This document shows, piece by piece, positions 1,143 to 55,455 of a stretch of DNA of 64,000 bases (positions are counted from its first letter, which is position 1; each line of letters starts with the position of its first letter). The position numbers and the translations under genes are program-made. Location: contig NZ_FNQJ01000001.1 in assembly GCF_900107605.1 (NCBI RefSeq), positions 248,001 through 312,000 on the forward strand. Reading direction: 5' to 3'. The DNA comes from Acidovorax soli. GTDB lineage: Bacteria > Pseudomonadota > Gammaproteobacteria > Burkholderiales > Burkholderiaceae_C. The notes under the pieces were generated by a model. That model was given only the letters and a program-made list of their open reading frames with translations. It ran no database searches and was not told where the DNA came from.

Positions 1143-1208
1143 ATGCTATTGAATAAAGAGCTTCAAGCGCTTTATACATAAGCGATATCAGCTCATTTGA
1201 TTCAAATT
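1143..1208 (+). repeat. Intergenic hairpin repeat, copy A
   Basis: This AT-richer stretch between the DUF6352 gene and the putA 3' end holds the core AGCTTCAAGCGCTTTAT at 1159. The same core and the ATAAGCG that follows recur before tonB (copy B) with two mismatches over 26 bases. GCGCTT and ATAAGCG can pair as a small hairpin. Confidence 0.75.
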
Positions 1209-1243
1209 CTCTTGCCGATGGGTAGCTGCGCAGTGCCTGGCGT

Positions 1244-4200
1244 TCAGCCAATCGTCATCAGGCTCGCATTGCCCCCTGCTGCTGCCGTGTTCACGCTGAG
1301 GGATCGTTCGATCAGCAGGCGCTCCAGCGGGATGTCTGCGGCACCGGGCTGCAGCGCGGTCACGCCCACGATGGGCCCGGGGCGGCGAGCGAGGGCCTTG
1401 CACACGGCTTGCAGCGATGGGGCGTCGCCATGGTGCAGCACGGCGTCCAGCTCCAGCGTGCCGTCGTTCAGCGTGTTGTCCTGCAGCATGACCTGCGCTT
1501 GTACCAGCGTGGGCAGCCGTGCGCGCAGGGCGGCTTGCGCACAGGGCCAGAGGGCCGTGCCGCCGCTGGCGAGCACTGCCGCGGTCTGCGCCAGCAGGTC
1601 GTCTGCGCTCTGCGCCAGGCACAGCACCCGGGCGCGCGGGGCCAGCGTATAGACGTTGCGCTCGCCCGTGGGGCCGGGCAGGGTGCGGGCGGTGCCGCTT
1701 GGGGTTTGCTGTGCAAAGCGCTGGCAGTGGCCTGCCAGGGCCAGGTTACCCTGGTGGTGCGCCCATTGCTGCAAGCTGGCCAGGGGCGCCAGCAGGCGTT
1801 CGCGCACCGCATCGTCGGGCGGTGTGGCGCGGTCAGCCTCGGCAAACGTGCGGGCCAGGGCATCGGCCGGGCGCTGCGACAGCAGGCGCAGCAGGTACAG
1901 CGGCCCGCCCGCCTTGGGCCCCGTGCCCGAGAGGCCTTCGCCACCAAAGGGCTGCACGCCCACCACGGCGCCCACCATGTTGCGGTTCACGTAGACGTTG
2001 CCCGCATGGGCGCGGTTCACCACGCGGGCGATGGTTTCGTCGATGCGGGTGTGCACGCCCTGCGTCAGGCCGTAGCCGGTGGCGTTGATCTGGTCGAGCA
2101 GACCGTCCAGGTCGTTGCGCGCATAGCGCACCAGGTGCAGCACGGGGCCGAAGACTTCGCGCTGCAATTCGTCGATGTGGCTCAGCTCGATCAAGGTGGG
2201 GGGCACAAAGGTGCCCTGCGCTCCGGCTGCCGACACATGGTTGGCATGCTGGAACACGCGATGGCCCTTGGCCTTGAGGGTCTCGATGTGCCGGGTGATG
2301 CCTGCCTGCGCTTCGGCGTCGATCACCGGGCCTACGTCCACGCGCAATTCGCCAGGATTGCCCACGCGCAGCTCTCCCATGGCGCCTTGCAGCATCTCGA
2401 CCACGCGGTCGGCGGCTTCTTCCTGCACGCACAGCACGCGCAGGGCGGAGCAGCGCTGGCCCGCGCTGTCAAAGGCGGACGACACGGCATCGCCCACCAC
2501 CTGCTCGACCAGGGCGGAAGAGTCCACGATCATGGCGTTCTGCCCGCCGGTTTCGGCAATCAGCGGGATGGGGCGGCCTGCGGCATCGAGCCGACCCGCC
2601 ACGGTGCGCTGCAGGATGCGGGCGACCTCGGTGGAGCCGGTGAACATCACGCCCATCACGCGGGCATCGCCAATCAGGCGGGCGCCCACGGTCTCGCCCT
2701 GGCCGGGCAGCAGCTGCACGGCGGCACGGGGCACGCCGGCCTGCCACAGCAGGCGCACGGCCTCGGCAGCGATGAGCGGGGTTTGCTCGGCGGGCTTGGC
2801 CAGCACGGGGTTGCCCGCAGCCAGCGCGGCCGCCACCTGGCCCATGAAGATGGCGAGCGGAAAGTTCCAGGGGCTGATGCAGGCCACGGGGCCCAGCGGG
2901 ATGTGGGTGGCGTTGTCGAAGGTGCTCTGCACCTGGGCCGCGTAGTAGCGCAGAAAGTCCACGGCCTCGCGCACTTCGGCCACGGCGTTGCTGGCGCTCT
3001 TGCCCGCTTCGCGCATCAGCAGGCCCAGCAGGGGCTGCATGCGCGCTTCCAGCAGGTCGGCGGTGCGCAGCAGCGCGGCAGCGCGCTCGGCGGGCGGCGT
3101 GGCGGCCCAGGGGGCGGCGGCGGCCTGGGCGTGGGCCAGGGCCTGGTCCACGTCGGTGGTGGTGGCTTCTTGCACCTGGCCCACCACGTCGCTGTGGACG
3201 GCCGGGTTGCGCACGGGCTGGGTGGGGCCTGCGGGCACGTCAGCGGCCAGCAGGGGCGCTGCCGTCCAGGCGTGGGCGGCCGTGGCTTGCAGCGTGGCAG
3301 CCAGCTCGGTCAGCGTGTTGTCGTTCGACAAGTCCAGCCCGCGCGAGTTGGTGCGGTGCGCGCCATACAAGCCCCGGGGTGTGGCAATGCGGGGGTGGGG
3401 CAGGCCAGCGGCACCTTCCACGGCCGCTTGCTGGTCCGCCACCTGCACGGGGCTTTTCACCAGTTCATGGAGCGCAATGGTCTCGTCGGCAATGCGGTTC
3501 ACAAACGAGGTGTTGGCGCCGTTTTCCAGCAGGCGGCGCACCAGGTAGGCCAGCAGGGTTTCGTGCGTGCCCACGGGGGCGTAGATGCGGCACGGGCGGC
3601 CGAGCTTGCCCGCAGTGATGGCGCCCACCACCTGTTCATACAGCGGCTCGCCCATGCCGTGCAGGCACTGGAACTCGTATTGCCCCGCGTCGTAGTTGCT
3701 GCCCGCCAGTTGGTAGAGGGTGGCCACCGTCTCGGCGTTGTGCGTGGCGAACTGGGGGTACACGGCCTCGGGTGCCGCCAGCAGCTTCTTGGCGCAGGCG
3801 ATGTACGAAATGTCGGTGTGCACCTTGCGGGTGTAGACGGGGTAGTCCTCCAGGCCATCGACCTGGGCGCGCTTGATCTCGCTGTCCCAGTAGGCGCCCT
3901 TGACCAGGCGCACCATCAGGCGGCGCTGGGTGCGGCGGGCCAGGTCCACCACGTAGTCGATGACGAAGGGGCAGCGCTTCTGGTAGGCCTGGATGACGAA
4001 GCCGATGCCGTTCCAGCCCGCCAGTGTGGGCTCGTGGCACAGGCGCTCCAGCAGGTCCAGCGACAGCTCCAGGCGGTCGGTTTCTTCGGCGTCGACGTTC
4101 AGGCCGATGTCGTACTGCTTGGCCAGGGCCGTTAGGCGCAGCACCAGCGGGTACAGCTCGTCCATCACCCGGCCAAACTGTGCGCGGCTGTAGCGGGGGT

Positions 4201-5002
4201 GCAGAGCGGAGAGCTTGATGGAAATGCCTGGGCCTTCGTAGATGCCGCGCCCGGCGGATGCCTTGCCAATCGCGTGGATGGCTTGCTCATACGAGGCGTA
4301 GTAGCGCTTGGCGTCTGCGCTGGTCAGCGCGGCCTCGCCCAGCATGTCGTAGGAATAGCGAAAGCCCTCGGCCTCCATGGTGCGGGCGTTGCGCAGCGCT
4401 TCGTCAATCGTTTCACCGGTCACAAACTGCTCGCCCATCATGCGCATGGCCATGTCCACGCCCTTGCGGATCAGGGGCTCGCCGCCCTTGCCGATCAGGC
4501 GGCTGAGCGAGTTGCCCAGGCTGCTCTCGCTGTGCGTGGCCACCAGCTTGCCGGTGATGAGCAGGCCCCAGGTGGCGGCGTTGACGAAGAGCGAGGGGCT
4601 CTTGCCCAGGTGCGAATCCCATTGGCCGTGGCTGATCTTGTCGCGGATGAGCGCGTCGCGTGTGGCTTTGTCGGGGATGCGCAGCAGCGCCTCGGCCAGG
4701 CACATCAGCGCCACGCCTTCTTGCGACGACAGCGAAAACTCTTGCAGCAGCCCTTGCACGATGCCCGCGCGCCCGGCGCTGGCCTTGCGTTCACGCAGCG
4801 CCTTGGCAATGCGCAGCGCCAGTTGTTCTGCCGCTGCGGCTTGATCCGCGGGCAGGCGGGCCTGGGCCAGCAGCGGGGCCAGGGCCTCGGGCTCGGGGCG
4901 GCGGGTGGCGGCGGTGATGGCGGCGTGCAGCGGGTTGCTCAGCGGGGGGCGGGGGGCGAAGTCGGCGAACGGCGCGGAAGGCTGGGCGGTGGGCTGCGTC
5001 AT
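1244..5002 (-). CDS. putA: Bifunctional proline dehydrogenase / L-glutamate gamma-semialdehyde dehydrogenase PutA
   Basis: Oxidises proline to glutamate in two steps, passing electrons from FAD to quinone and then reducing NAD. The proline dehydrogenase barrel shows GISIKLSALHPRY (about 267) and RLVKGAYWDSEIKRAQ (about 369). The aldehyde dehydrogenase part has the IAETGGQNA glutamate (about 816) and the GQRCSALR catalytic cysteine (about 850), followed by a C-terminal extension of about 200 residues. The chosen start, MTQPTAQ, gives 1252 residues; an upstream in-frame ATG at 5092 would run into the divergent regulator's promoter. The N-terminal ribbon-helix-helix DNA-binding domain of trifunctional PutA is missing, so control probably comes from the adjacent Lrp-type gene. 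Confidence 0.96.
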   Translation of the reverse strand: MTQPTAQPSAPFADFAPRPPLSNPLHAAITAATRRPEPEALAPLLAQARLPADQAAAAEQLALRIAKALRERKASAGRAGIVQGLLQEFSLSSQEGVALMCLAEALLRIPDKATRDALIRDKISHGQWDSHLGKSPSLFVNAATWGLLITGKLVATHSESSLGNSLSRLIGKGGEPLIRKGVDMAMRMMGEQFVTGETIDEALRNARTMEAEGFRYSYDMLGEAALTSADAKRYYASYEQAIHAIGKASAGRGIYEGPGISIKLSALHPRYSRAQFGRVMDELYPLVLRLTALAKQYDIGLNVDAEETDRLELSLDLLERLCHEPTLAGWNGIGFVIQAYQKRCPFVIDYVVDLARRTQRRLMVRLVKGAYWDSEIKRAQVDGLEDYPVYTRKVHTDISYIACAKKLLAAPEAVYPQFATHNAETVATLYQLAGSNYDAGQYEFQCLHGMGEPLYEQVVGAITAGKLGRPCRIYAPVGTHETLLAYLVRRLLENGANTSFVNRIADETIALHELVKSPVQVADQQAAVEGAAGLPHPRIATPRGLYGAHRTNSRGLDLSNDNTLTELAATLQATAAHAWTAAPLLAADVPAGPTQPVRNPAVHSDVVGQVQEATTTDVDQALAHAQAAAAPWAATPPAERAAALLRTADLLEARMQPLLGLLMREAGKSASNAVAEVREAVDFLRYYAAQVQSTFDNATHIPLGPVACISPWNFPLAIFMGQVAAALAAGNPVLAKPAEQTPLIAAEAVRLLWQAGVPRAAVQLLPGQGETVGARLIGDARVMGVMFTGSTEVARILQRTVAGRLDAAGRPIPLIAETGGQNAMIVDSSALVEQVVGDAVSSAFDSAGQRCSALRVLCVQEEAADRVVEMLQGAMGELRVGNPGELRVDVGPVIDAEAQAGITRHIETLKAKGHRVFQHANHVSAAGAQGTFVPPTLIELSHIDELQREVFGPVLHLVRYARNDLDGLLDQINATGYGLTQGVHTRIDETIARVVNRAHAGNVYVNRNMVGAVVGVQPFGGEGLSGTGPKAGGPLYLLRLLSQRPADALARTFAEADRATPPDDAVRERLLAPLASLQQWAHHQGNLALAGHCQRFAQQTPSGTARTLPGPTGERNVYTLAPRARVLCLAQSADDLLAQTAAVLASGGTALWPCAQAALRARLPTLVQAQVMLQDNTLNDGTLELDAVLHHGDAPSLQAVCKALARRPGPIVGVTALQPGAADIPLERLLIERSLSVNTAAAGGNASLMTIG

Positions 5003-5122
5003 GGTGAAGTCTTTCGGTGGTTGTGCGGGTCCGACACGGGTTGGGTGTGTTGTTGGCAATGATCCTTGGGCTTTGGATGAATGAATGTTCAAAGAATGAG
5101 GTATCTTCAGAATAATTCACTA
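5003..5122. promoter_or_regulatory. Divergent putA / lrp-type promoter region
   Basis: A 120-bp gap separates the two divergent genes. It is AT-rich near the regulator start (ATCTTCAGAATAATTCACTA, 5103-5122) and is the natural place for both promoters and an Lrp-type operator. I cannot assign exact -35/-10 boxes or an operator with confidence. Confidence 0.45.
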
Positions 5123-5602: not shown

Positions 5603-5692
5603 TGGTGTCTGGCTGCGCGGCAACGGGCTTGGGGTGCGTGCTGTCCTCACCGCATAATGAATGACCATTTCAACCAGATCGAGGAGAAGACC

Positions 5693-5986
5693 ATGTCCGC
5701 ATTTCCGTGCGCTGCTGTTGCACTGGTAGCCGCCTTTGCCAGTCAGTCGGCCGCAGCCGCCTGCTATCTGGTGTATGCGCCCGATCAGGAGATTGTTTAC
5801 CGGGCGTCCGTGCCTCCGGTGGACATGTCGCGTGACATCCATGAAACCCTTCCCCAGGTGGCCCCGGGCGCAACGCTGGTGTTCTCGCTGAACGACCAGG
5901 GCTGCGAGCTCACGATCAACAAGCTGCCGCTGGCATCCACCGCGGGGCCGGTCGGCATGCGCCCTGCGCGCGCAGATCGGGGCTGA
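5693..5986 (+). CDS. Small exported protein of unknown function
   Basis: A 97-residue protein beginning MSAFPCAAVALVAAFA, with an AxA-type signal cleavage site near residue 22-23 (SQSAAAACYLV). The mature part holds the motif CYLVYAPDQEIVYRASVPPVDMS and two cysteines that could form a disulfide, so it is probably periplasmic. The start is fixed by a strong GAGGAGAAG ribosome-binding site seven bases upstream; the longer frame from 5657 would place that site inside the coding sequence. I recall similar small proteins in Comamonadaceae but no function. It precedes rlmD by 59 bp in the same direction. Confidence 0.75.
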   Translation: MSAFPCAAVALVAAFASQSAAAACYLVYAPDQEIVYRASVPPVDMSRDIHETLPQVAPGATLVFSLNDQGCELTINKLPLASTAGPVGMRPARADRG

Positions 5987-6045: not shown

Positions 6046-7509
6046 ATGAGCGAACCGAAAGAACTATCCCCCTCGTTTGAACCCACCGCGCAGAATTCCC
6101 AGAGCGATCTGCCCGAAGGCTGGCTGCAGGTCCAGTCCATGGACCTGGATGCCCAGGGCGTCGCCCGCAAGCCCGACGGCAAGGTCGTCTTCATCGATGG
6201 TGCCCTGCCGTTCGAACTGGTCACCGCCAACACCCACCGCAAGAAGAACAACTGGGAGCAGGCCAGCCTGGTGGCGATTCACCGCGAATCGTCGCAGCGT
6301 GTGCGCCCCGGCTGCCCGCATTTCGGCCTGCACGCCGGCGCTTGCGGCGGCTGCAAGATGCAGCATCTGCACATCGGCGCCCAGGTGGCCGTGAAGCAAC
6401 GGGTGCTGGAGGACAACCTCTGGCACCTGGGCAAGGTGAAGGCCCAGACCATGCTGCGTCCCATCGAGGGCCCGGCCTGGGGCTACCGTTACCGGGCGCG
6501 GCTGTCGGTGCGCCATGTGATCAAGAAGGGCCAGGTGCTGATCGGCTTTCATGAGCGCAAGAGCCGCTATGTGGCCGACATGCAGCAATGCCCCGTGCTG
6601 CCGCCGCATGTGGACGCCATGCTGATGCCCTTGCGGGCGCTGATTGCCGGCATGGACGCGCGCGACACCTGCCCGCAGATCGAACTGGCCTGTGGCGACA
6701 GCGTGACCGCACTGGTGCTGCGCCACCTGGAGCCGCTGAGCGCGGATGACCTCGCCCGGCTGCGCGCCTTTGCGGCCGAACACCAGGTGCAATGGTGGCT
6801 GCAGCCCAAGGGGCCGGACACCGTGAAGCTGCTCGATGAAGGCGGCGAACCGTTGTCGTATGCGCTGCCCGACTTCGGCATCACCATGCCGTTCAAGCCC
6901 ACGGATTTCACCCAGGTGAACCCGCACATCAACCGCGTGCTGGTATCGCGCGCGCTGCGCCTGCTGGATGTGCAGAAAGACGAGCGCGTGATCGACTGGT
7001 TCTGCGGCCTGGGCAACTTCACGCTGCCCCTGGCCACCCAGGCGCGCGAAGTGCTGGGCATTGAGGGCAGCGAGGCCCTGGTGGCGCGTTCGCGCGAAAA
7101 CTATGCATCGAATCAGGCTGCGGCGCAGGACCATAAAGCGCTGGCAGCTACTGATTTCGTCGCCCGCAACCTGTTCGAGATGACCCCCGGGATGCTGGTG
7201 GCCGACGGTGTGGCCGACAAGTGGCTGGTCGATCCCCCGCGCGAGGGTGCCTTCGCGCTGGCCAAGGCACTGGCTGACATCGAGCAGGCACGCATCGGCG
7301 CCGACGGTGCAGGGCCGCTGCCCGCGGGGGCCGAGGGCTGGACGCCGCCCCAGCGCATCGTCTATGTGAGCTGCAACCCCGCCACGCTGGCGCGCGACGC
7401 AGGGCTGTTGGTGCACCTGGCGGGCTACCGATGCACGGCGGCGGGCATGGTGAACATGTTCCCGCACACGGCCCATGTCGAGAGCATGGCGGTGTTTGAA
7501 CGGGTGTGA
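6046..7509 (+). CDS. rlmD: 23S rRNA (uracil-1939 C5)-methyltransferase RlmD
   Basis: Methylates U1939 of 23S rRNA using S-adenosylmethionine. The 487-residue protein has an N-terminal TRAM-like region, then the cysteines of the [4Fe-4S] cluster (C90, C100, C103 and one near C182 in MQQCPVLP). The SAM-binding motif [14 protein letters not shown] lies around 316-329, and the catalytic cysteine in [12 protein letters not shown] is near 443. Length and motif order match RlmD rather than the related TrmA. Residues about 356-371 ([16 protein letters not shown]) are encoded by a segment resembling the intergenic repeat family in reverse orientation; this is a variable part of the family, so activity should be unaffected. 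Confidence 0.95.
7108..7158 (-). repeat. Repeat-like segment inside rlmD, copy L
   Basis: Read on the minus strand, this segment contains AGCTGCCAGCGCTTTATGG, matching the intergenic core AGCTTCAAGCGCTTTATGG at 16 of 19 positions. It lies within the rlmD reading frame without breaking it. Single-copy resemblance could be chance, but the match covers the most conserved part of the repeat. Confidence 0.5.
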
Positions 7510-9126: not shown

Positions 9127-9137
9127 TGGGCGATGGG

Positions 9138-9203
9138 ATGCTATGGGGTGGATAGCCGCTTGCGCTCTGCCATCAAGCGCTGCAGGCGGAAAACGCTCCA
9201 AAT
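9138..9203 (+). repeat. Intergenic hairpin repeat, copy C
   Basis: The segment carries GGATAGCCGCTTGCGCT, a spacer, then CAAGCGCTGCAGGC. AGCGC arms flank the loop as in other copies. It directly follows the GlcG-like gene and precedes its terminator. Confidence 0.6.
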
Positions 9204-9234
9204 CAAAAAACCGGTCTCAAGGACCGGTTTTTTG
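9204..9234. terminator. Bidirectional intrinsic terminator
   Basis: CAAAAAACCGGTC pairs with GACCGGTTTTTTG around a five-base loop, giving T runs on both strands. It can end the GlcG-like gene and incoming minus-strand transcription from hemP. Confidence 0.85.
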
Positions 9235-9417
9235 ATGCCGCCAAAGTTTCTGCCAGCGGGGGCTGGAAAAAAAGCCTGGCTACGCGGGCACGCCCGTTGG
9301 CTGGCAAAAAAGACCCTGTCGGGCTTGTGACAAGCCCGGGAGTCTCCCCACGATGAAACCCTGAAAAGACGCCAGCTGCGAGGTGGCGCGTGCGAGCGCG
9401 CTGGCTGGCGGTCCGAT
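9235..9417. other. Non-coding gap with further hairpins
   Basis: No convincing gene. A hairpin CGGGCTTG-TGA-CAAGCCCG lies around 9319-9337, and a second GC-rich inverted repeat followed by a minus-strand T run lies around 9255-9312. These could be the hemP terminator region. Confidence 0.4.
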
Positions 9418-10992: not shown

Positions 10993-11679
10993 TTATTCGA
11001 GAACAAAATTGATCGGCACCAGATTCCACATGGTCTCGGGCACGCCATTGCGCTTGCCAGGCACGAAGCGCCAGCGCATCACGGCGTCCTGGGCCTGGCG
11101 GTCCAGACGGTCGTAGCCGCTGGATTGGCTGATTTCCACCTTCTGCGGCAGGCCGTCGGTGCCGATGAGCACGCGCAGCACCACCTTGCCCTGCTCGCCC
11201 ATGCGTTTGCTGATGGCCGGATAGCTGGGCTTGGGATTGTTGAGGTAGGCGGCATCGCTGGAAGGCATCTCGATGCGGGCCGGAGCGGGTGGTGCCGGTG
11301 GCGCGGGCGGTGCCGGGGGCGCCACCGGGGCTTCGATGGGAGGTGCCGGTGGCTGGGGCGTGGTGACGCCAACGGGGGCATTCGGGGCCGGCGTGGGGTC
11401 GGCAATGGCCACGGGCATGGGCGCCGGGCGTGGGGCCTGTACCTTGGGCGCTGCCTTGGGCGGCGGTGGGGCAGGTGGTGCCGGTGGGGCCAGCTTGGGG
11501 GCTGGCGGGGCGATGAATTCGCTCAGCAGTTCCGCAGGGACGATGACCTCTGCAGCCTTGCGCAGCAGCCCGGACTGCAGGGCCCACAGGCCCGCCACAT
11601 GCAACAGCACCACCGAACCCACGATCACGGCATTGCGGCTCACGCCCCCGGCGGGGGCAAAACGGTCTGGTTGGGGCAT
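10993..11679 (-). CDS. tonB: Energy-transducing protein TonB
   Basis: A 228-residue protein. One membrane anchor, NAVIVGSVVLLHVAGLWAL (about 16-34), is followed by a long Pro/Ala-rich periplasm-spanning spacer (about 58-135). The C-terminal TonB domain has YPAISKRMGEQGKVVLRVLI, then GLPQKVEISQSSGYDRLD and AVMRWRFVPGKRNG. It passes energy from ExbBD to outer-membrane receptors for iron complexes or haem. It heads tonB-exbB-exbD. The expected promoter position is occupied by a repeat copy, and I see no strong Fur box there, so read-through from bfd is possible. Confidence 0.96.
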   Translation of the reverse strand: MPQPDRFAPAGGVSRNAVIVGSVVLLHVAGLWALQSGLLRKAAEVIVPAELLSEFIAPPAPKLAPPAPPAPPPPKAAPKVQAPRPAPMPVAIADPTPAPNAPVGVTTPQPPAPPIEAPVAPPAPPAPPAPPAPARIEMPSSDAAYLNNPKPSYPAISKRMGEQGKVVLRVLIGTDGLPQKVEISQSSGYDRLDRQAQDAVMRWRFVPGKRNGVPETMWNLVPINFVLE

Positions 11680-11680
11680 A

Positions 11681-11735
11681 TAAAAATGATAGCTTCAAGC
11701 GCTTTATGGATAAGCGCCACCGCCAAAAAACACTT
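11681..11735 (+). repeat. Intergenic hairpin repeat, copy B
   Basis: The core AGCTTCAAGCGCTTTAT starts at 11691 and is followed by GGATAAGCGCCA, so GCGCTT and AAGCGC form a hairpin. It lies just upstream of tonB. Together with copy A it defines the repeat core most clearly. Confidence 0.75.
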
Positions 11736-11779
11736 GAATTATTGACGGAGGACCCACCAGGCCGAACCGGCCACAAGGA

Positions 11780-14141: not shown

Positions 14142-14654
14142 ATGACCGCCCCTTCTTCCACGGCATTCAGCACCTGTGATCTCTGTGACGCGCACAAGGG
14201 CGACGACAGCGGTGCATTTCGCGTACTGCCGCCCGTATTCCACAGCTACGGCGGCGTGGCGGCCTTTGCCGGCACGGTGGCAACGGTGAAGTGCTTTGAG
14301 GACAACACCCTGGTCAAGGTCGCGGTGGATTCTCCCGGTCTGGGTCGCGTGCTCGTGGTGGATGGCGGGGGCTCTTTGCGGCGCGCCCTGGTGGGCGGCA
14401 ACCTGGCCGCCGCCGCTGCCCGCAATGGCTGGGCCGGCCTGGTGGTGGATGGCTGTGCGCGCGATGTTGCCGAACTGAATGCAGCCGCCGTGGGCATCCG
14501 CGCCCTGGGCCTGATGCCCCTGCCCACCGAAAAGCGCAACGAGGGCCAGCGCGATGTGGCCGTGCAGATCCAGGGCGTGTGGGTGCGTCCGGGCGACTGG
14601 CTCTGCGCGGACGCCGACGGCATCGTTGTCAGCGCCCGGTCACTTGTGGCTTGA
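14142..14654 (+). CDS. rraA: RraA-like protein (RNase E regulator / HMG aldolase fold)
   Basis: A 170-residue protein of the RraA family: FHSYGGVAAFAGTVATVKCF (about 29-48), VVDGGGSLRRALVGGNLA (about 73-90), and the Arg-Asp pair in VVDGCARDVAELN (about 102-114) that binds metal and substrate in the related aldolases. E. coli RraA inhibits RNase E; sister enzymes cleave 4-hydroxy-4-methyl-2-oxoglutarate and oxaloacetate. Length and motif spacing suit RraA, but sequence alone cannot separate the two activities. The last 15 bases overlap the 3' end of the convergent EamA gene. Confidence 0.88.
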   Translation: MTAPSSTAFSTCDLCDAHKGDDSGAFRVLPPVFHSYGGVAAFAGTVATVKCFEDNTLVKVAVDSPGLGRVLVVDGGGSLRRALVGGNLAAAAARNGWAGLVVDGCARDVAELNAAAVGIRALGLMPLPTEKRNEGQRDVAVQIQGVWVRPGDWLCADADGIVVSARSLVA

Positions 14655-15602
14655 GTCGACCCGGAGGCCCACGCGCAGCGCCGCACGCGTGGGCAGGGTG
14701 GCCAGCAGCACGCTGGCCAGCGCAATGCCAAAGGCCAGCAACTGCAGGCCCGAAAAGGATTCGCCCAGCACCAGCACACCCACCAGCGCGGCGCTGACAG
14801 GCAACAGCACGGTGAATATGCCGCTTTGTGCCGCCGGCACGGCTTTCAGGCCCGTCATCCACAGCCACACGGTCCACATGCAGGCTGCCAGTGCATAAAA
14901 CACCAGGAGCAGCCAGGTGTTCCAGCCCACCGCTGCAAAGTCGAATCCCCAGGCCATGTAAAGGCCCAGCGGGGTGGACAGCGCAAACCCCCACAGGTTG
15001 ATCAGCGAGGTGATGCGTTTGGGGCCGATCGCCCCCGTGAGTTTCTTGCCGATGACCGAATACGCCGCTTCGCAAACCACGGCGCCCACCAGCAGCAATT
15101 GCCCGAGCCAGACAAGGTTTGGGGTGTTTTTGCCATCCAGTGCATGCCCTGCATTTGCTGGCAGCTCTGATTTTGACAGTGATAAAAGCGCAACACCCGC
15201 CACGGCACAGGCCACCGCCACCCAGGTGCGCGGCGCCACACGCTCGCGCAGGAACAGCCAGCTCATCACGGCCACAGCCGCCGGGATGGTGGCCATGATC
15301 ACGCCTGCGGACACGGCGCTGGTCAGGCTTACGCCATAGATCATGCAGAGGGTGAACAGGAAATTGCCGAGGAAGGACTCCAGAAACAGCAGCCGCCGCA
15401 CCTGGGGTGTCAGGGGTGGTTCGTCGGCGGGTTTCTTCAGCCAGTGCACCATGGCCAGCCCGCCGATGCCAAAGCGCATCCAGGCCAGCAGAAACACCGG
15501 CAACGCCGCCGCCAGCGGCTTGGACAGTGCCACGTAGCTGCCTACCAGGGCCATGCTCAGTGCCAGACACAGGTAGGCGATGGGGCGGCTGGGGGCATTC
15601 AT
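14640..15602 (-). CDS. EamA/DMT-superfamily transporter
   Basis: A 320-residue inner-membrane protein with ten predicted helices in two EamA repeats (first begins YLCLALSMALVGSYVALSK, second begins NLVWLGQLLLVGAVVCEAAY). Members export amino acids, nucleotides or other metabolites; the substrate cannot be told here. The loop between the repeats (SKSELPANAGHALDGKNTPN) is encoded by sequence resembling the intergenic repeat. It converges on rraA with a 15-bp overlap of coding ends, so no terminator fits between them. Confidence 0.9.
   Translation of the reverse strand: MNAPSRPIAYLCLALSMALVGSYVALSKPLAAALPVFLLAWMRFGIGGLAMVHWLKKPADEPPLTPQVRRLLFLESFLGNFLFTLCMIYGVSLTSAVSAGVIMATIPAAVAVMSWLFLRERVAPRTWVAVACAVAGVALLSLSKSELPANAGHALDGKNTPNLVWLGQLLLVGAVVCEAAYSVIGKKLTGAIGPKRITSLINLWGFALSTPLGLYMAWGFDFAAVGWNTWLLLVFYALAACMWTVWLWMTGLKAVPAAQSGIFTVLLPVSAALVGVLVLGESFSGLQLLAFGIALASVLLATLPTRAALRVGLRVDSSHK
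15148..15190 (-). repeat. Repeat-like segment inside the EamA gene, copy M
   Basis: On the minus strand it reads AAAATCAGAGCTGCCAGC followed by AGGGCATGCAC, similar to the 5' half of the intergenic repeats but more diverged. It codes for the loop joining the two EamA repeats. Confidence 0.35.
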
Positions 15603-19617: not shown

Positions 19618-19703
19618 TTTTGAATGAAAACATGCTCTGGCGTGCGCCCGTTGTGCGGTGTTAGCTACTTATTTTGTAGCATTTTGATTCAAGGAAGATA
19701 GCC

Positions 19704-21074: not shown

Positions 21075-21130
21075 AGCGGCTATCGTCCTGATAGCTGCTT
21101 GCGCAATAACAGCAAGGGCTAGGGCTTGAA
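21075..21130 (+). repeat. Intergenic hairpin repeat, copy E
   Basis: TGATAGCTGCTTGCGCAAT is followed by AGCAAGGGCTAGGGCTTGAA. It matches the GATAGCTGCTTGCGC form of the family and provides the left arm of the hairpin after rplT. Confidence 0.6.
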
Positions 21131-21154
21131 AAGGCACTAGCCCTTGTTCATTTT
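21113..21154 (+). terminator. Terminator-like hairpin between rplT and pheS
   Basis: CAAGGGCTAG and CTAGCCCTTG form ten perfect pairs over a 14-base loop, followed by TTCATTTT. It may separate thrS-rplT from pheST transcription, at least partly. Confidence 0.6.
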
Positions 21155-22343: not shown

Positions 22344-22432
22344 CTTCATTGGATTTGAATGCATCTTTGTCTATTGGAATCTATTGTTGACAAGCGCAAC
22401 CAGCTATATTTTTAAGAGCTAACGCCAAAGAA
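22344..22432 (-). repeat. Intergenic hairpin repeat, copy F
   Basis: The minus strand reads ATATAGCTGGTTGCGCTTG then CAACAATAGATTC and ends near GCATTCAAATCC, following the repeat layout. It fills the pheS-pheT gap. Confidence 0.55.
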
Positions 22433-30135: not shown

Positions 30136-33100
30136 GTGACCTTGCACATGACCACGCTGGCGGGCGGCAACGCCCTCAGCTCCTTTCGCGCCCAGCAACT
30201 TCAACCCGCTCTGGAGGCCATTCACCCCCGGATCAGCGGCATTGCGGCACGCTTCGTGCACCTGATCGCTACCGATGCGGCCCCCACGCCCTCCGAAAAA
30301 GAGCGCCTGGCAGCGCTGCTGACCTACGGCGATCCGTATGCTGGCCCTGCCGACGGTACCGTCCTCATCGTCACACCGCGCCTGGGCACGCTCTCGCCCT
30401 GGGCTTCCAAGGCCACCGACATCGCGCGCAATTGCGGCCTGGCCATTCGCCGGGTCGAGCGCATCACCGAATACCATGTCAGTCTCAAGGCCAGCCTGCT
30501 GGGCAAGGCGCCCGAGCTGAGTGCCGAGCAACTGGCCCAGGTGGCCGCCCTGCTGCACGACCGCATGACCGAATCGGTGGTGGCCGACCGCAGCGCCGCT
30601 GCCGCGCTGTTCACCGAGCTGCAACCCGTGCCCATGGAGCATGTGGACGTGCTGGCCGGTGGCCGCGCTGCGCTGGAAGCCGCCAACACCCGCTTTGGCC
30701 TGGCGCTGGCCGATGATGAAATCGACTACCTCGTGACCGCCTTCACGGGCCTGAAGCGCAACCCCACCGATGTGGAGCTGATGATGTTCGCGCAGGCCAA
30801 CAGCGAACACTGCCGCCACAAAATCTTCAACGCCGAGTTCACCATCGACGGCGTGGCGCAGGACAAGAGCCTGTTCGGCATGATCCGCAACACGCACCAG
30901 CTGGCGCCCCAGCACACGGTGATCGCGTATTCGGACAACGCCTCGGTGATGGAAGGCCATCAGGTGGAGCGTTTTGTGGCAAAGATGGCCGTAAGCGCCC
31001 GTGAATCAATTGCCAATAGCTATCAAAAGAGCAGCGTTAGCCAGCATGTGCTGATGAAGGTGGAGACGCACAACCACCCCACGGCCATCTCGCCGTTCCC
31101 GGGCGCATCCACCGGCGCGGGTGGCGAGATCCGCGACGAAGGCGCTACCGGCCGGGGCTCCAAGCCCAAGGCCGGTTTGACCGGGTTTACCGTCTCCAAG
31201 CTGTGGGGCAGCACCGTGGGCAAGCCCGAGCACATTGCCAGCCCGCTGCAGATCATGGTCGAAGGCCCTCTGGGTGGCGCGGCGTTCAACAACGAATTCG
31301 GCCGCCCCAATCTGAACGGCTACTTCCGCGAGTACGAGCAAAACGTCGGTGGCGTTCAGCGCGGCTACCACAAGCCCATCATGATCGCGGGCGGCGTGGG
31401 CGTGATCGATGCCGAGCTGACGAAGAAGATCGAATTCCCTGCCGGCTCGCTGCTCATCCAGCTGGGCGGCCCCGGCATGCGCATCGGCATGGGCGGCAGC
31501 GCCGCCAGCTCCATGGCCACCGGCACCAATGCGGTCGAGCTGGACTTCGACTCTGTGCAGCGTGGCAACCCCGAGATCGAGCGCCGTGCGCAAGAGGTCA
31601 TCAACCACTGTTGGGCGCAGGGCGCGGCCAACCCCATCCTCGCCATCCACGACGTGGGTGCGGGTGGTTTGTCGAATGCGTTCCCCGAGTTGACCAACGA
31701 TGCAGGCCGTGGCGCACGCTTCGATTTGCGTGCCGTGCAGCTCGAAGAATCGGGCATGGCGCCCAAGGAAATCTGGAGCAACGAGTCGCAAGAGCGCTAT
31801 GTGCTGGCGATTGCGCCCGAATCCCTGCCGCTGTTCCAGGCCTTTTGCGAACGCGAGCGCTGCCCGTTTGCCGTGATCGGCACGGCCACCGAAGAGCGCC
31901 AGCTGGTGCTGCACGACCCTGCCGCCACGGCAGAAGACCAAAAGCTGCCCGTGGACATGCCCATGAACGTGCTGCTGGGCAAGCCGCCCAAGATGCACCG
32001 CGACGTGAAGACCGTGGTGCGCGAATTCGCACCGATGGACTTGACCGGCGTGCCGCTGCAAAAGGCCGTGATCGACGTGCTGGCCCACCCCACGGTCGCC
32101 TCCAAGCGCTTCCTCATCACCATTGGCGACCGCACCGTGGGCGGCCTCAGCCACCGCGACCAGATGGTCGGCCCCTGGCAGGTGCCCGTGGCCGATTGCG
32201 CCGTGACGCTGGCCGACTACCGTGGCTTTGCCGGCGAGGCCATGAGCATGGGCGAGCGCACGCCGCTGGCCGCCATCAACGCGCCCGCATCGGGCCGCAT
32301 GGCGGTGGCTGAAGCCATCACCAACCTGCTGGCTGCGCCCATCGAATTGCCGCGTGTGAAGCTGTCGGCCAACTGGATGGCCGCCTGCGGCGAGCCCGGC
32401 GAAGACGCTGCGCTGTACGAAACCGTGAAGGCCGTGGGCATGGAGCTGTGCCCCGCTTTAGGCGTGTCCATCCCCGTGGGCAAGGACAGCCTGTCCATGC
32501 GCACCCAGTGGAACGAAGGTTCGGACAAGAAGAAGGTCACGTCCCCCGTCAGTCTGATCGTGAGCGCCTTCGCCTCGCTGTCCGACGTGCGCGGCACGCT
32601 CACGCCCCAGCTCGATGCCACCGAGGCCGACACCACGCTGGTGCTGATCGACCTGGGCAAAGGCCAGAACCGCATGGGCGGCAGCATCCTGGGCCAGACG
32701 CTGGAGCAAAGCGGCGACGTGGTGCCCGATGTGGACGACCCGCAAGACCTGGTCAACCTGGTCAACGCCGTGAACGCGCTGCGCGCCAAGGGCCAGATAC
32801 TGGCCTACCACGACCGCAGCGATGGCGGCCTGCTGGCGGCGGCCGCCGAAATGGCCTTTGCCGGCCACGTGGGCGTGGCGCTGAACGTGGACATGCTGGT
32901 CACCGAGGGCGACGGCATCAGCGATAGCCGCATGGAAACCGGAGACGCCAAGAACTGGGCGCAGCAAGTCAGCGCGCGCCGCGAAGAACTCACGCTCAAG
33001 GCCCTGTTCAATGAAGAACTGGGGGTGCTGCTGCAGGTGCGCACCGCAGAGCGCAACGACGTGATGCAGACGCTGCGTGAGCATGGCCTGTCCAGGTTCA

Positions 33101-34143
33101 GCCATTTCGTCGGCAAGACGCGCCCGGCATCGTCCAGCATCGATGCGGGCAAGGGCGAGCTGCAGGTCTGGCGTGACGCCAAGGCCGTGTTCAGCGCGCC
33201 GCTGGCCGACCTGCACCAGGTGTGGGACGCCGTGAGCTGGAAGATCTGCCAGCAGCGCGACAACCCCGCCAATGCCGATGCCGAGCACGCCGCAGCGGGC
33301 GATCCCGCCGACCCCGGCCTGCATGTGCAGCTCACGTTCGATGCTGCCGACAACGTGGCTGCGCCGTACCTGAACCTGGCCCGCCCCAAGGTCGCCATCC
33401 TGCGCGAGCAGGGGGTGAACTCGCACGTCGAGATGGCCTACGCCTTCACCGAGGCGGGCTTCGAGGCATTCGACGTGCACATGACCGACCTGCAGACCGG
33501 CCGCGTCAAGCTCGAAGACTTCAAGGGCGTGGTCGCCTGCGGCGGCTTCAGCTATGGCGACACGCTGGGCGCGGGCATTGGCTGGGCGCGCTCCATCACG
33601 TTCAACCCCGTGCTGGCCGCGCAGTTCCAGGGCTTCTTTGGCCGCAGCGACACGTTCGGCCTGGGCGTGTGCAACGGCTGCCAGATGTTTGCCGAACTGG
33701 CTGACATCATCCCCGGCGCGCAGGATTGGCCGCGTTTTACGACCAACCAGAGCGAGCGCTTCGAGGCCCGCCTCTCGCTGGTGGAAGTGCTGGAGTCCCC
33801 CAGCCTGTTCTTGCAAGGCATGGCGGGCAGCCGCCTGCCGATCGCCGTGGCGCACGGCGAGGGTTATGCCAACTTCAAGTACCGGGGCAACGCCGACAAG
33901 GCCATTGCCGCCATGCGCTACGTGGACAACCACGGCCGCGCGACCGAGCAGTACCCGTTCAATCCCAACGGCAGCGCGGGTGGCTTGACCGCCGTGACCA
34001 CGGCCGACGGCCGCTTCACGGCCATGATGCCGCACCCCGAGCGGGTCTTCCGCAATGTGCAGATGAGCTGGACCAGCGAAGACCAGGCGCAGTACAGCGG
34101 CTGGATGCGCATCTGGCGCAACGCGCGCAAGTGGGTAGGGTGA
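30136..34143 (+). CDS. purL: Phosphoribosylformylglycinamidine synthase PurL (large type)
   Basis: Fourth step of purine synthesis: converts FGAR to FGAM with glutamine and ATP. It is the single-chain form, about 1335 residues. Motifs include [51 protein letters not shown] (about 328-340) and the C-terminal glutaminase with [10 protein letters not shown] (nucleophile near 1179). I chose GTG at 30136 ([21 protein letters not shown]); ATG at 30148 is the alternative. Residues about 285-299 ([14 protein letters not shown]) are encoded by AT-richer, rare-codon sequence resembling the repeat family. Confidence 0.96.
30988..31032 (-). repeat. Repeat-like segment inside purL, copy K
   Basis: The minus strand reads CTCTTTTGATAGCTATTGGC, then AATTGATTCACGGGCGCTTA and CGGC, following the layout TTGATAGCT-TTGC-GCGCTTA. 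In the purL frame it uses codons uncommon in the gene (GTA, TCA, ATT, TAT, CAA). The frame stays open. Confidence 0.55.
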
Positions 34144-34146
34144 GAG

Positions 34147-34212
34147 TTTTTTGCTATTGAAATAGCAGCTTGGTGCGCATGCTGTATAAGTGTTAGACGC
34201 TATTTTTGTATG
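34147..34212 (+). repeat. Intergenic hairpin repeat, copy G
   Basis: GCTATTGAAATAGCAGCTTG is followed by GTGCGC, a spacer and TATAAGTGTTAGACGC. It fills the gap after purL and could act as its terminator, since a T-rich stretch follows. Confidence 0.65.
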
Positions 34213-34243
34213 TAAACATCTCTTCGAACTCTGGGAGTGATCC

Positions 34244-35233
34244 ATGGCCGCTGGCAGCCTTCTCGCCTTGTTGGACGACATCGCCACCGTCCTCGACGAT
34301 GTGGCCCTCATGACCAAGGTCGCTGCCAGGAAAAGTGCCGCCATGGCCGACGACGTGTCGGTCATGACCAAGGTGGCGGCACAAAAGACGGCGGGCGTGC
34401 TGGGCGACGATCTGGCGCTCAATGCCCAGCAGGTCACCGGCGTGCGCGCCGAGCGCGAAATTCCTGTGGTCTGGGCCGTGGCCAAGGGTTCGCTGGTGAA
34501 CAAGGCGATTCTGGTACCGGCGGCGCTGCTGATCAGTGCCTTCGCGCCCTGGGCGGTGACACCGCTGCTCATGGTGGGTGGCGCCTTTTTGTGCTTTGAG
34601 GGGTTTGAGAAGCTGGCGCACAAGTTTTTGCACAGCACCCAGCACGACGAGGCCGTGCGCGAAAGCCATGCCCAGGCCAATGCCAACCCGGCCGTGGACC
34701 TGGTTGCGTTCGAGAAGGACAAGATCAAGGGCGCGGTGCGCACTGATTTCATCCTGTCGGCGGAAATCATTGCCATCACCCTGGGCACGGTGGCCAGTGC
34801 GCCGTTTGTGCAACAGGTGGCGGTGCTGGCTGGCATTGCGGTGGTCATGACGATAGGTGTTTATGGCTTCGTGGCGGGCATCGTCAAGCTCGACGACCTG
34901 GGGCTGTGGCTCAACAACAAGCCGGGTGCCACGGCCCGTGCGCTGGGCGCGGGCATTGTGCGTGCCGCGCCCTGGTTGATGAAGGCGCTCTCGGTAGCGG
35001 GCACGGCGGCCATGTTTCTGGTCGGCGGCGGCATTCTGGTGCACGGTGTTCCGGCGCTGCAACACGCCGTGGAGGGCGTGGGTGTGGCGGCGGCGCTTTG
35101 GCCTGTGGGCGGCCTGTGGGCGGTGCTGGTTCCCAACCTGCTCAATGCCGTGATCGGCATCGTGGCGGGCGGCCTGGTGGTGGTGGGCGTGACGCTGGTG
35201 AACCGGCTGCGCAAGGGTGCTACAGCCCCTTGA
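34244..35233 (+). CDS. DUF808 (YedI-like) inner-membrane protein
   Basis: A 329-residue protein. Its N-terminal polar region repeats [20 protein letters not shown] and [20 protein letters not shown] (about 8-52), a hallmark of DUF808 proteins. Several membrane helices follow ([60 protein letters not shown] and others). No enzyme motif is visible and the function is unknown. GGAGTGATCC precedes the ATG. Gene neighbours on both sides are unrelated by known function. Confidence 0.9.
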
Positions 35234-36035: not shown

Positions 36036-36320
36036 CTTGATGGGGCGATTTTTCCCGGTCATCACCGATGCAGGAGCCGGGTGGCTGTGGGTTCTGATCG
36101 CCGAATGCTATACAAACAATAGCTGTTGGCGATTTGTGGGATTGCGCTACAACCAAAAAATCGTGAAATGGCATCAGGCCTTGCAATGCAAAGGCTGGCC
36201 GGTACGCTTGCGTGTGGGTGCAATCCTGCGTGGCCTGTCGTTGCAGGCTGTCACCCACGATGAACGCAGTGGGGGTAGCCTGTGGCATCGTTCACACCCC
36301 GATGCCCGACGCCCACCGCC
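36036..36320. other. Gap between ompW and egtD
   Basis: Apart from the repeat copy at 36104-36163, no gene or RNA is recognised. A frame opening at 36037 has no ribosome site and no recognisable protein. The egtD promoter should lie here. Confidence 0.4.
36104..36163 (+). repeat. Intergenic hairpin repeat, copy H
   Basis: ATGCTATACAAACAATAGCT is followed by GTTGGCGATT, a spacer and ATTGCGCTACAACC. Diverged, but in the order typical of the family. Confidence 0.5.
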
Positions 36321-40403: not shown

Positions 40404-40461
40404 TTTGCTATAGAAAATATGGCTAATGGCGCTTGTTGCATAAGCGCCAGAGCCTGAAATG
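40404..40461 (+). repeat. Intergenic hairpin repeat, copy I
   Basis: TATGGCTAATGGCGCTTGTT is followed by GCATAAGCGCCAGAGCC. GGCGCTT and AAGCGCC pair as a hairpin. It follows the RskA-like gene. Confidence 0.7.
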
Positions 40462-40472
40462 GCGCAATTATT

Positions 40473-50099: not shown

Positions 50100-52265
<2,166 letters not shown>

Positions 52266-52291
52266 GAACGTGAACACGTTCCGAGGGCTGA

Positions 52292-52639
52292 TCAAAGGTG
52301 GGTGGGCTTGGATGCTCCGCCCAGCGCGCGGGGAAGCTGCCCCTGGAACAGCAGTGTCAATTGGGCCAGCGTGGCATGGGCAAGTGCCTCGCCCCGCAGT
52401 GGAGTGAGCACGGCGAGCAAATCGCTGCGCAGGTACCACAGCGCCTCTATGTCGCCTGCGTAGCGCAGCCGCATGTTCATGCGGGCGACGTCACTGCCAC
52501 TGAGGCCCGCCAGGGACTGGATCATTGCGTACCGGATATCTTCGAGGTCCTGGTTGCGCACCCAGGCCGTCGATGCTGGAGCATCGCGGCCCAGAAGGCC
52601 GTGCAGGCTGCTGCGAAGATTGGGCTTGTTCCAGCGCAT
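52292..52639 (-). CDS. Conserved hypothetical protein
   Basis: A 115-residue protein, MRWNKPNLRSSLHGLLGRDA, then VRNQDLEDIRYAMIQSLAGL, MNMRLRYAGDIEALWYLRSD and LLAVLTPLRGEALAHATLAQ. It is mostly helical by composition, without membrane segments. Codon use is typical, and I recall homologues in Comamonadaceae. It converges on ldcA, leaving 26 bp, and is divergent from the penicillin-acylase-type gene. Function unknown. Confidence 0.72.
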   Translation of the reverse strand: MRWNKPNLRSSLHGLLGRDAPASTAWVRNQDLEDIRYAMIQSLAGLSGSDVARMNMRLRYAGDIEALWYLRSDLLAVLTPLRGEALAHATLAQLTLLFQGQLPRALGGASKPTHL

Positions 52640-52797
52640 GAAGAATTGCAGGAATGTCTGCGAGTGGCAGGGCAGTTCAAGTTACGCGGGAGTGAGACGG
52701 TGCGCAAGGGGCGTGCTCCTTTTTTTGCATAAAGACAACAAACTGCGCCCTTTTATTTCAATTCGCCGATGTGGGAGCGATCGAGGAGACAGACACC

Positions 52798-55341
52798 ATG
52801 GTGTGGTTACAGCGTGCAATCGTCGGATGGGTGGCGGCGGCCTTGCTGGCGGGTGCCGGCGTCGCCCTGTATGTGCAGCGTGCTTTTCCGGCGCTGGACG
52901 GGCGCATCGTGGTGCACGGGTTGCGCGAGGGGGTCAGCGTGCAGCGCGACGCTGCCGATGTCACGCACATCCGCGCGCAGTCTGCGCAGGATGCGTGGTT
53001 TGCCATGGGCTACGTGCATGCGCAGGAGCGCACCTGGCAACTGGAGTTCAACCGCCGGGTCATGCACGGCGAGCTTTCCGAAGTCTTCGGGCCCGCCACC
53101 CTGGATACCGACAGGCTCATGCGCGCGCTCGACATCATGGGCCATGCACGCAAGCAATATGCCGGGCTGCCCGCCCACGCCCGCGAGGCGTTGCAGGCCT
53201 ACAGCCAGGGCATTCATGCGTTCCACCAAAACCTGCCGCAGGCATTGCCGCCCGAGTTCCATGTGCTGGGGGTGAAGCCCGGCGGTACCACCGGCGCAGT
53301 CTGGGAGCCCGAGGACAGCGTGGCCTGGGCGCTGATGATGGCGCTGGACCTGGGCGGCAACTGGGGCAACGAGTTTGCCCGCCTGTCCGTGGCCAGAACG
53401 CTGGACACCGGGCGCCTGTGGCAGCTGATGCCGCCCTATCCGGGCGAACCACCCGCCGCATCCGCCGATCTGGCGTCGCTGTACCGGCAACTGGGCATCT
53501 ACCGTGAGGCGCAGGCGCCTTCTGCGCCCGCAGGCAGCGGGGGTGAAACGCCCGTGGCGACGAGCACCGGGCCGCGAGAGGCCGCGGGGGGCGTGTTTTC
53601 GCACGAGATCAGCCAGGGCATGCTGGCCTGGGCACAGGACCTCACGCGCAATGCGGGCACCTCCGAAGGCAAGGGCAGCAACAACTGGGTGCTGGCGGGC
53701 TCGCGCACGGTCAGCGGCAAACCCTTGCTGGCCAACGATCCGCACCTGGGCCTGAGTGCGCCGGCCATCTGGTATTTCGCGCGGCTGCAGGCACCTGCGG
53801 GGGCGGCTGCCGACGGCACCCCCATCGGTGCGATAGATGCTGTCGGCGCCACCTTGCCGGGGCTGCCCTTTGTGGTGCTGGGCCGCACCGGCGGCGTGGC
53901 CTGGGGGTTCACCAACACCGGCCCCGATGTGCAGGACTTGTACCTGGAGCAGATCAACCCCGCCGACCCCACCCAATACCGCACGCCCGATGGCTGGTTG
54001 CCTTTTACGCTGCGCACGGAAACCATTCGCGTCAAGGGGCAAGCGGATGTCGTGCTGCCGCTGCGCGCCACCCGCCATGGCCCGGTGCTGAGCGATGTAC
54101 AAAAGTCGCATGCCGAGGTGCTGGATTTGCGCAAATACGTGCTCGCGCTGCGCTGGAGCGCGCTCGATGCCGACAACCAGACGGTGCTTGCCGGCCTGCA
54201 GAGCAACCAGGCGCAGTCGGTGGATGCGCTTTTCCAGGCGCTGGAGCCCTACCACTCGCCCATGCAGAGCGTGGTGGCCGCCGATGTGCAGGGGAACATC
54301 CGCTTCAAGGCCATGGGCAAGGTGCCTGTGCGCCATGCCGACAACGATATTCGCGGCATCGCACCGTCGCCCGGCTGGGATGCGCGCTACGACTGGCAAG
54401 GCTGGCTGCCTTCTGCCCAGACACCCGAGGATGACGGCGGCAGCGGCTGGGTGGCCACCGCCAACCAGCGCGTCACCGCGCCCGGCTATCCGCACTACCT
54501 CACGCAGGACTGGGTCTTGCCCTACCGCCATGACCGCATCGCCCAGCTGATAGCGGCCACCCCCCGGCATGATGCGGCCAGCATGCAGGCGATGCAGGCG
54601 GATGCCTTGTCGCTGGCCGCGCAGCGGCTGCTGCCCCATCTGCGCAAGGCCGCGCCGCAGCACCCGCTGGCGCCCGCCGTGCAGGCCCTGCTGCGTGATT
54701 TTGACGGGGTGATGGACGCCAACCGGGCTGCGCCGCTGGTGTTTGCGGCCTGGGCGGATGAACTGGCACGGGGTTTGGTAGCCCCCCGTGTGGGCGACGA
54801 CCGTTTCAAAGCCACCTACGGCAAACGTGACTACCGCGCGGCCCTGGAGGGCATTCTGGAGCGCAACGATGCCTGGTGGTGCCAGCCCCTGTCGTGTGCC
54901 GACCAGTCGGCCGCCGCGCTGGCGCGCGCGCTCGATCGCCTGCAGGCCGCCTACGGTGCCGACCCGGCCCGGTGGCGCTGGGGCGACGCCCACCCCGCGC
55001 TCAGCAGCCACAGGCCTTTGGGTAACGTGGCCCTGCTGGCGCCGTACTTTGATGTGAGCGTGCCTTCGCCCGGCGATGCCTACACGGTGAACGTGGGCCA
55101 GTACAACGCGGGCGACGCCAAAGGCCCCTTTGTGAATCGCCATGCGGCTTCGCTGCGGGTGGTGTATGACCTGGCCGATCTGGAGCAGTCCCGGTTCATC
55201 TACCAGACGGGCCAGAGCGGGCTGGTGTTCTCGCCGCGCTACCGCGACATGCGCGCCACCTGGGTGCAGGCGGGCTACCGCCACTTGCAGCGCGAGCCCG
55301 CGCAGATGCGGCACGACCTGCGGCTGGTTCCTGCGCCATAG
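52798..55341 (+). CDS. Penicillin-acylase-type N-terminal nucleophile amidase
   Basis: An 847-residue S45-family precursor. The N terminus has one hydrophobic helix (AIVGWVAAALLAGAGVALYV, about 7-26), so it is exported or anchored. The alpha part includes DAADVTHIRAQSAQDAWFAM and GYVHAQERTWQLEFNRRVMH. After a linker, autocleavage before Ser294 in GKGSNNWVLAGSRTVSGKPL would free the catalytic serine. Later motifs are ANDPHLGLSAPAIWYFARLQ and GFTNTGPDVQDLY. Related enzymes cleave penicillin side chains or acyl-homoserine lactones; the substrate here is unknown. GGAG precedes the ATG. Confidence 0.93.
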   Translation: MVWLQRAIVGWVAAALLAGAGVALYVQRAFPALDGRIVVHGLREGVSVQRDAADVTHIRAQSAQDAWFAMGYVHAQERTWQLEFNRRVMHGELSEVFGPATLDTDRLMRALDIMGHARKQYAGLPAHAREALQAYSQGIHAFHQNLPQALPPEFHVLGVKPGGTTGAVWEPEDSVAWALMMALDLGGNWGNEFARLSVARTLDTGRLWQLMPPYPGEPPAASADLASLYRQLGIYREAQAPSAPAGSGGETPVATSTGPREAAGGVFSHEISQGMLAWAQDLTRNAGTSEGKGSNNWVLAGSRTVSGKPLLANDPHLGLSAPAIWYFARLQAPAGAAADGTPIGAIDAVGATLPGLPFVVLGRTGGVAWGFTNTGPDVQDLYLEQINPADPTQYRTPDGWLPFTLRTETIRVKGQADVVLPLRATRHGPVLSDVQKSHAEVLDLRKYVLALRWSALDADNQTVLAGLQSNQAQSVDALFQALEPYHSPMQSVVAADVQGNIRFKAMGKVPVRHADNDIRGIAPSPGWDARYDWQGWLPSAQTPEDDGGSGWVATANQRVTAPGYPHYLTQDWVLPYRHDRIAQLIAATPRHDAASMQAMQADALSLAAQRLLPHLRKAAPQHPLAPAVQALLRDFDGVMDANRAAPLVFAAWADELARGLVAPRVGDDRFKATYGKRDYRAALEGILERNDAWWCQPLSCADQSAAALARALDRLQAAYGADPARWRWGDAHPALSSHRPLGNVALLAPYFDVSVPSPGDAYTVNVGQYNAGDAKGPFVNRHAASLRVVYDLADLEQSRFIYQTGQSGLVFSPRYRDMRATWVQAGYRHLQREPAQMRHDLRLVPAP

Positions 55342-55414
55342 GGGTCTGCTGAGCCTTGAAATCTTTGGCTGCGGATCCGGCAAGGCTGACCCATGCGGCA
55401 GCACTCAGAATGTG

Positions 55415-55455
55415 AAGAAATCATGCGGCGAGCGCTTTATGGGTATGCGCTGGCC
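55415..55455 (+). repeat. Repeat copy N overlapping the L,D-transpeptidase 3' end
   Basis: AAATCATGCGGCGAGCGCTT is followed by TATGGGTATGCGCTGG, close to the AGCGCTTTATGGATAAGCGC core. On the minus strand it supplies the TAA stop (55437-55439) of the L,D-transpeptidase gene. Confidence 0.55.

Follow-up and report, generated by a model that had tools for sequence, protein, structure and literature searches.

A stretch of 64,000 nucleotides of the Acidovorax soli genome (contig NZ_FNQJ01000001.1, positions 248,001 to 312,000), referred to here as the window, carries copies of an element built of two inverted repeats with 7-nt spacers. A genome-wide scan and searches of related genera agreed in placing these copies in a dispersed, palindromic, largely intergenic repeat family of the Comamonadaceae, as an earlier note on this DNA had supposed. 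Comparison of orthologous places suggests that the element is old and stably placed, and not an active jumping element. The explanation that we favor, with some hesitation, is that it is a candidate binding element that acts at the level of the DNA and derives from an old REP/ERIC-like repeat.

The consensus of the 30 best copies from three element-rich genomes was approximately 68 nt long: TTTGCTATtAattTnATAGCTGCTAGCGCTTgaTgnATAAGCGCTaGAGGCcaATTTnAtTnaAAat. The boundaries of the element were sharp in these copies, with information of about 0.1 bit just outside. Internally, the element consists of two dyads, GCTAT-N7-ATAGC and GCGCTT-N7-AAGCGC; the ends of the consensus have only a short TTTG...CAAA. 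Spacing was surveyed in 1.0 Mb of sequence that had been fetched for genes and synteny, independently of the covariance model described below and of the core pattern. This sequence contained 81 anchors of the form ATAGC-N5-GCGCTT, orthologous copies included. The 3' arm was recognizable in 66 of the 81 and stood at exactly N7 in 62 of those 66; GCTAT was recognizable in 58 of the 81, at exactly N7 in 50. The sequence of the loop was variable while the length of the spacer was fixed. The head, ATAGC, matched at a mean of 4.78 of 5 positions over 89 copies, a few of which read GTAGC. At one site, that of relatives G173, G164 and G085 (near 1807074 in G173:C1), the loop appeared by eye to be reverse-complemented between orthologues, ATCCATC in G173 versus TATGGAT in G164, perhaps through template switching in the palindrome.

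The earlier note had listed ten sites in the window. A 36-mer consensus matched nine of these at 23 or more of 36 positions; the site at 22344 was absent from the matches even at 21 or more. When the window was shuffled 20 times under a first-order Markov model, no match reached 23, and the mean numbers of matches at 22 and 21 were 0.3 and 1.55, respectively. The covariance model, R1, was built from an alignment (A2) of 36 copies from the same genome, and the window was scanned with filters off. All ten sites were found at E ≤ 0.2 and six at E ≤ 5e-9, the scores of copies 1142, 9137, 11674, 36104, 40404 and 50101 being inflated by their presence in the training set. The sites beyond the six strongest, all outside the training set, had E-values of 1.4e-3 (55411), 8.7e-3 (34150), 0.18 (21076) and 0.2 (22355). 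Copies were present at the places orthologous to the three weakest sites and were clearly stronger for two of them. The observation in the earlier note was thus confirmed. The 26-base core with two mismatches described for 1143 and 11681 was borne out (92% over 26), and the window copies indeed occur in both orientations. R1 further added three copies within genes, 7102(-), 15119(-) and 30974(-), and a weak copy, 19619(-).

Convergent gaps hold the copies at 1142..1206 (+; 57.9 bits with R1, training set; also at this place in G173, G152, G153 and G189) and 40404..40468 (+; 54.6 bits, training set; also in G189), and the copy at 55411..55475 (-; 23.9 bits; 55-57 bits in G152/G173) overlaps the end of a minus-strand gene in such a gap. 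The copies in tandem gaps are 11674..11738 (+; 58.2 bits, training set; also in G173, G152, G153 and G189), 36104..36168 (+; 46.8 bits, training set; also in G173, G152 and G153), 34150..34214 (+; 21.2 bits; 63 bits in G164) and the weak copies 19619..19683 (-; 17.3 bits, E = 0.11; 19 bits in G164) and 22355..22422 (-; 16.5 bits; 31 bits in G164). After gene ends lie 9137..9201 (+; 43.2 bits, E = 4.1e-9, training set; also in G152, G153 and G189) and the weak copy 21076..21140 (+; 16.6 bits), which is weak in G173 and G164 as well (18 bits). The copy at 50101..50165 (-; 62.4 bits, training set) fills the gap between a stop codon and the ATG of tadA and was present in all 7 relatives compared.

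The three copies within genes lie in frame, and relatives carry clearer counterparts of them. That at 7102..7166 (-; 34.9 bits; 49-50 bits in G152/G173) lies in an rlmD-like gene (6046-7509, +; Pfam tRNA_U5-meth_tr), that at 15119..15183 (-; 19.8 bits; 31-44 bits in G153, G152 and G173) in an EamA transporter gene (14640-15602, -; Pfam EamA), and that at 30974..31038 (-; 16.7 bits, E = 0.17; 66, 62 and 48 bits in G173, G161 and G164) in purL (30136-34143, +).

Some local features of the window were recorded beside these copies. The gap at 34143-34244 is about 1 kb longer in G152, which has no copy right after the stop codon; the matching gap in G164 is short and holds a strong copy. Directly after copy 9137, at 9202-9240, a stem and T run, ACCGGTCTCAAGGACCGGTTTTTT, were seen by eye, so that a terminator-like structure stands beside the element there; it was not among the terminator calls of the scan described below. 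The ATG of tadA directly follows the element (50101-50165), as it does in many relatives, and the tadA leader may therefore be very short at this place.

The source genome comprises 4.13 Mb in 90 contigs. With a single copy as the blastn query, 38 matches were found in it at E ≤ 10. Of 1689 candidates genome-wide, 150 were scored with R1, every one of which matched at E ≤ 3e-4. The genome therefore contains at least 150 copies, and the enrichment whose absence was to refute the earlier note was observed. An exact 23-mer of the core occurred in 64 stretches among genomes with names, nearly all of them titled Acidovorax or other Comamonadaceae; the titles included Acidovorax, Giesbergeria, Diaphorobacter, Comamonadaceae, Burkholderiaceae and one metagenome-assembled genome titled only Gammaproteobacteria. 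When 150 genomes of the family were searched with R1, matches at E ≤ 1e-4 were found in 50, with at least 35 in many of these, and the other 100, which served as a control, had none at this threshold. The copies in related taxa for which the earlier note had proposed a search are thus present. The dyad at ≤ 1 mismatch was found 72 times in 616 kb of sequence from the genus, and 145 kb from genomes lacking the element held it once. A blastn search of plasmid and phage collections with one copy gave no match; one viral contig of IMG/VR had an exact 21-mer of the core (L126:1992-2012). No strand polarity or clustering along the chromosome was seen among the 57 copies of G120 listed of the 150 scored.

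To follow the history of the element, copies scoring 30 bits or more were traced via their flanks across 8 genomes of the genus. The 546 ordered comparisons included 350 that were unresolved and 196 that were resolved, the latter repeating about 16-19 sites and hence not independent. A copy in the same orientation was present in 187 of the resolved comparisons, none was flipped, and nine were without a model match. Three of these nine represent a visibly diverged copy of one site, and six a single empty site, at which the element is cleanly absent from G152 and G161 but present in G173, G164 and G085. The flanks of G152 and G161 are alike by eye, and one gain or loss therefore suffices to account for it. 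No convincing target-site duplication, as a MITE would leave, was found in 30 copies from rich genomes, and none was visible by eye at the filled/empty site. At the tadA site, the gap between stop and start consists of a copy or its remnant both in the window and, by eye, in 29 of the 29 relatives retrieved; these came from a search of the genus in which all 46 others matched at least part of the query region. The presence/absence comparison proposed in the earlier note thus yielded one empty site, with 187 of 196 resolved comparisons occupied, and the sameness of place and orientation across the genus speaks against present mobility.

Constraint was evaluated in 14 orthology groups outside genes, which correspond to about 13 sites since 55411 and G164_64803 seem to be the same site (same gene end). 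Between orthologous copies, which are not independent, mismatch was 0.097 in the four dyad parts versus 0.471 in the loop, spacer and ends, and was lower in the dyads in 14 of 14 groups (p = 1.2e-4). When the copy nearest the consensus was dropped, the corresponding values were 0.101 and 0.396, with the same direction in 9 of 9 groups. The contrast between dyad and loop held in both A/T and G/C columns. The 10 nt flanking the element differed at 0.52 and 0.61, ungapped values that are perhaps too high. Conserved dyads with fixed spacing, as expected of a protein site, were therefore found with the exception of the tadA site. In an alignment of 28 sequences of that site, from which 2 of 30 had been left out for length, the central arms differed at 0.46 and 0.25 and the spacer at 0.48, so that one arm was not more conserved than the spacer. 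The best-kept parts were only ATAGC (0.01) and GGCC (0.14), and the central palindrome was lost, by eye, in at least 7 of the 28.

Pairing was preserved no better than expected: 402 of 504 cells were paired versus 402.2 in within-site shuffles, with no compensation. Compensatory pairing was likewise slight among 36 paralogues, and pairing at the tadA site was slightly above shuffles (238 of 336 versus 232.8; 22 of 200 shuffles as high). RNA covariation, where sought, was weak or absent; the arms hardly vary, so its absence there says little.

Gene context was counted for 89 of the 150 matched copies of the source genome using a purpose-written, simple gene caller and leaving out L042, a contig end. 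Gaps held 80 of the 89 copies: 58 tandem, 16 convergent and 6 divergent. A further 6 copies lay within genes and 3 at locus edges. The median length of tandem gaps with a copy was 105 nt; the element thus fills these gaps. This position near gene ends, together with the over-representation of convergent over divergent gaps (16:6 with a copy versus 16:24 without; p = 0.018), would suit an element that acts as RNA, its central hairpin shielding the 3' ends of mRNAs, punctuating operons or slowing transcription in either direction. REP sequences of enterobacteria are an analogue for such a role. Indeed, the 33-nt core folds on both strands, with means of -12.5 and -12.1 kcal/mol over the 89 copies, and 29% and 17% of these copies, on the two strands, had TTTT within the 9 bases that follow the stem. 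However, the element had no preferred direction, with 32 copies running along the tandem genes beside them and 26 against (p = 0.51), the loop sequence drifts while the spacer length stays fixed, the arms show no clear compensation, and several orthologous groups persist, by eye, with a broken palindrome. A scan of two stretches for intrinsic terminators called none of the 7 strong window copies in them terminator-like, although the weak 19619 copy was so called; together with the orientation counts, this argues against the terminator role suggested in the earlier note. The same two stretches gave no support for sigma-70 promoters. At the Rfam gathering score, tRNA was the sole match in the window, and ten loci with strong copies had no match at the element at E ≤ 1. 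We consider an RNA-level element, and with it the mRNA-stabilizing role suggested in the earlier note, less likely than a DNA-level binding element, albeit a serious alternative to it.

A neutral origin, in which the copies are decaying remnants of an extinct element and their apparent constraint arises from the choice of recognizable copies and from short alignments, appears improbable. The query sites were indeed chosen by score, at ≥ 30 bits, so their conservation is partly selected for; copies differ widely, with a mismatch of 0.43 between paralogues, and some sequences of the tadA site have lost their arms. Against this, the resolved relatives all carried the element save for the one empty site and the three diverged copies, so the relatives were not filtered by score. 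In addition, the contrast between dyads and loops survived removal of the best copy, and the spacing is fixed.

That the family is a REP still moved by the genome's RAYT-like Y1_Tnp gene is very improbable. The genome does have one Y1_Tnp gene, the gene was present in 18 of 20 element-rich genomes, R1 elements occurred in the flanks of 5 of 21 Y1_Tnp loci, and a degenerate copy was seen by eye after the Y1_Tnp stop codon in L031. Among the 18 long-type loci, however, 15 carried a GGGGTCAGAC-like repeat and 1 the dyad at ≤ 1 mismatch, so that the arrangement which defines RAYT-REP (PMC2817692), a rayt gene between two inverted cognate REPs, was not seen for the element; an R1 element lay somewhere in the fetched flanks of 4 of the 18, about as its density predicts. 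The gene was found in 112 of 150 genomes of the family, 42 of 50 with the element and 70 of 100 without, and two element-rich genomes lacked it. Mobilization by Y1_Tnp/RAYT is thus mostly refuted by the other repeat at its loci, the family-wide occurrence of the gene and the little movement of the element across the genus. At the Y1_Tnp gene of the source genome (L031:1060-1917), GGGGTCAGAC-like repeats stand on both sides in opposite orientations, and this repeat may be the cognate REP of the RAYT-like gene. Of the interpretation offered in the earlier note, the dispersed palindromic family stands; a RAYT link, present mobility and intrinsic terminators found no support.

The in-frame copies were compared with homologous proteins. 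The purL loop measured 31 aa in seven genomes with the element; of 20 genomes without it, 19 had a loop of 23-30 aa and one a loop of 37 aa. Identity of the stretch to the consensus was 36-53 of 65 in the seven versus 23-29 in the twenty. The gain was thus no more than a few residues, as opposed to 22. The rlmD-like protein had 8 extra residues in an alignment with E. coli RumA, and the stretch encoded by a copy in a ubiA-like gene (L143:1571-1635, training set) aligned without gaps to 20 of 22 homologues. These copies could have arisen by an insertion that displaced native codons or, step by step, by conversion.

Among known repeats, ERIC elements are imperfect palindromes of about 127 bp that lie between genes and are not known to have a transposase. 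The element described here shares these traits and differs in sequence and length. Some copies of the Rickettsia palindromic elements lie in frame within genes, as here; in the present family few or no residues are added and most copies are intergenic. A literature search, mostly of open-access texts, found no description of the full element, and its core as a single word had no match. As described in the available text on REP/BIME and RAYT (PMC2817692), REP sequences resemble the element in having more than 100 dispersed, intergenic, imperfectly palindromic copies. In contrast to these, the element has no RAYT gene that it flanks, has two dyads with fixed N7 spacers, and begins in most copies with ATAGC rather than GT(A/G)G. 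BRE, a repeat of beta-proteobacteria, Comamonadaceae included, is likewise mostly intergenic; according to the available part of PMC3110155 it is about 90 bp long, GC-rich (69% in Bordetella) and often tandem, a description from which the element differs in length and composition.

The closest precedent is a spaced motif of Acidovorax ebreus TPSY, GCTTAT(N)5AAGCG, given without explanation as a potential novel motif in Table 7 of PMC5217627. Its 114 copies lie close to genes, 107 of them intergenic, with 44 convergent, 4 divergent and 59 co-oriented. In letters and spacing, the motif equals the second dyad of the element plus two loop bases (GCTT-AT-N5-AAGCG). The available part of the paper presents the motif pair only, without the full element, the first dyad, boundaries, orthology or constraint, the comparison being one of descriptions. 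Judging from its sequence, the motif ATAGCT(N)22CAAAAG of Polaromonas naphthalenivorans in the same table-based source (PMC5217627) is probably the same element. The second dyad is thus already in print as a motif.

In the binding-element explanation that we favor, the element spread before the window's genus radiated, or early in that process, and has been almost immobile since, as orthology shows; a lost transposase is assumed for this original spread. The two inverted repeats with their 7-nt spacers change far less than the rest, and this low rate would reflect purifying selection. Constraint on sequence and spacing in the absence of strand preference points to DNA that is recognized by protein, probably by one dimeric protein or by two of this kind, which would bind the double strand regardless of the orientation of the genes. 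Placed for the most part where genes end, in tandem or convergent gaps, the putative site may serve as a roadblock, an insulator or a chromosome-organizing site. It is a more doubtful proposition, although one in keeping with fixed dyads, more than 100 gene borders, selection and an in-frame place in core genes such as purL, that the element is the site of a chromosome-wide DNA-binding protein of the Comamonadaceae; the copies within genes would then have replaced native codons rather than added 22 residues.

These results define a repeat family, separate from REP/RAYT, in a widely studied environmental group. How coding sequence can accommodate a repeat while the length of the protein hardly changes is a question posed by the copies within genes. 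If the dyads are indeed bound by protein, the family would point to a new genome-organizing or insulating factor.
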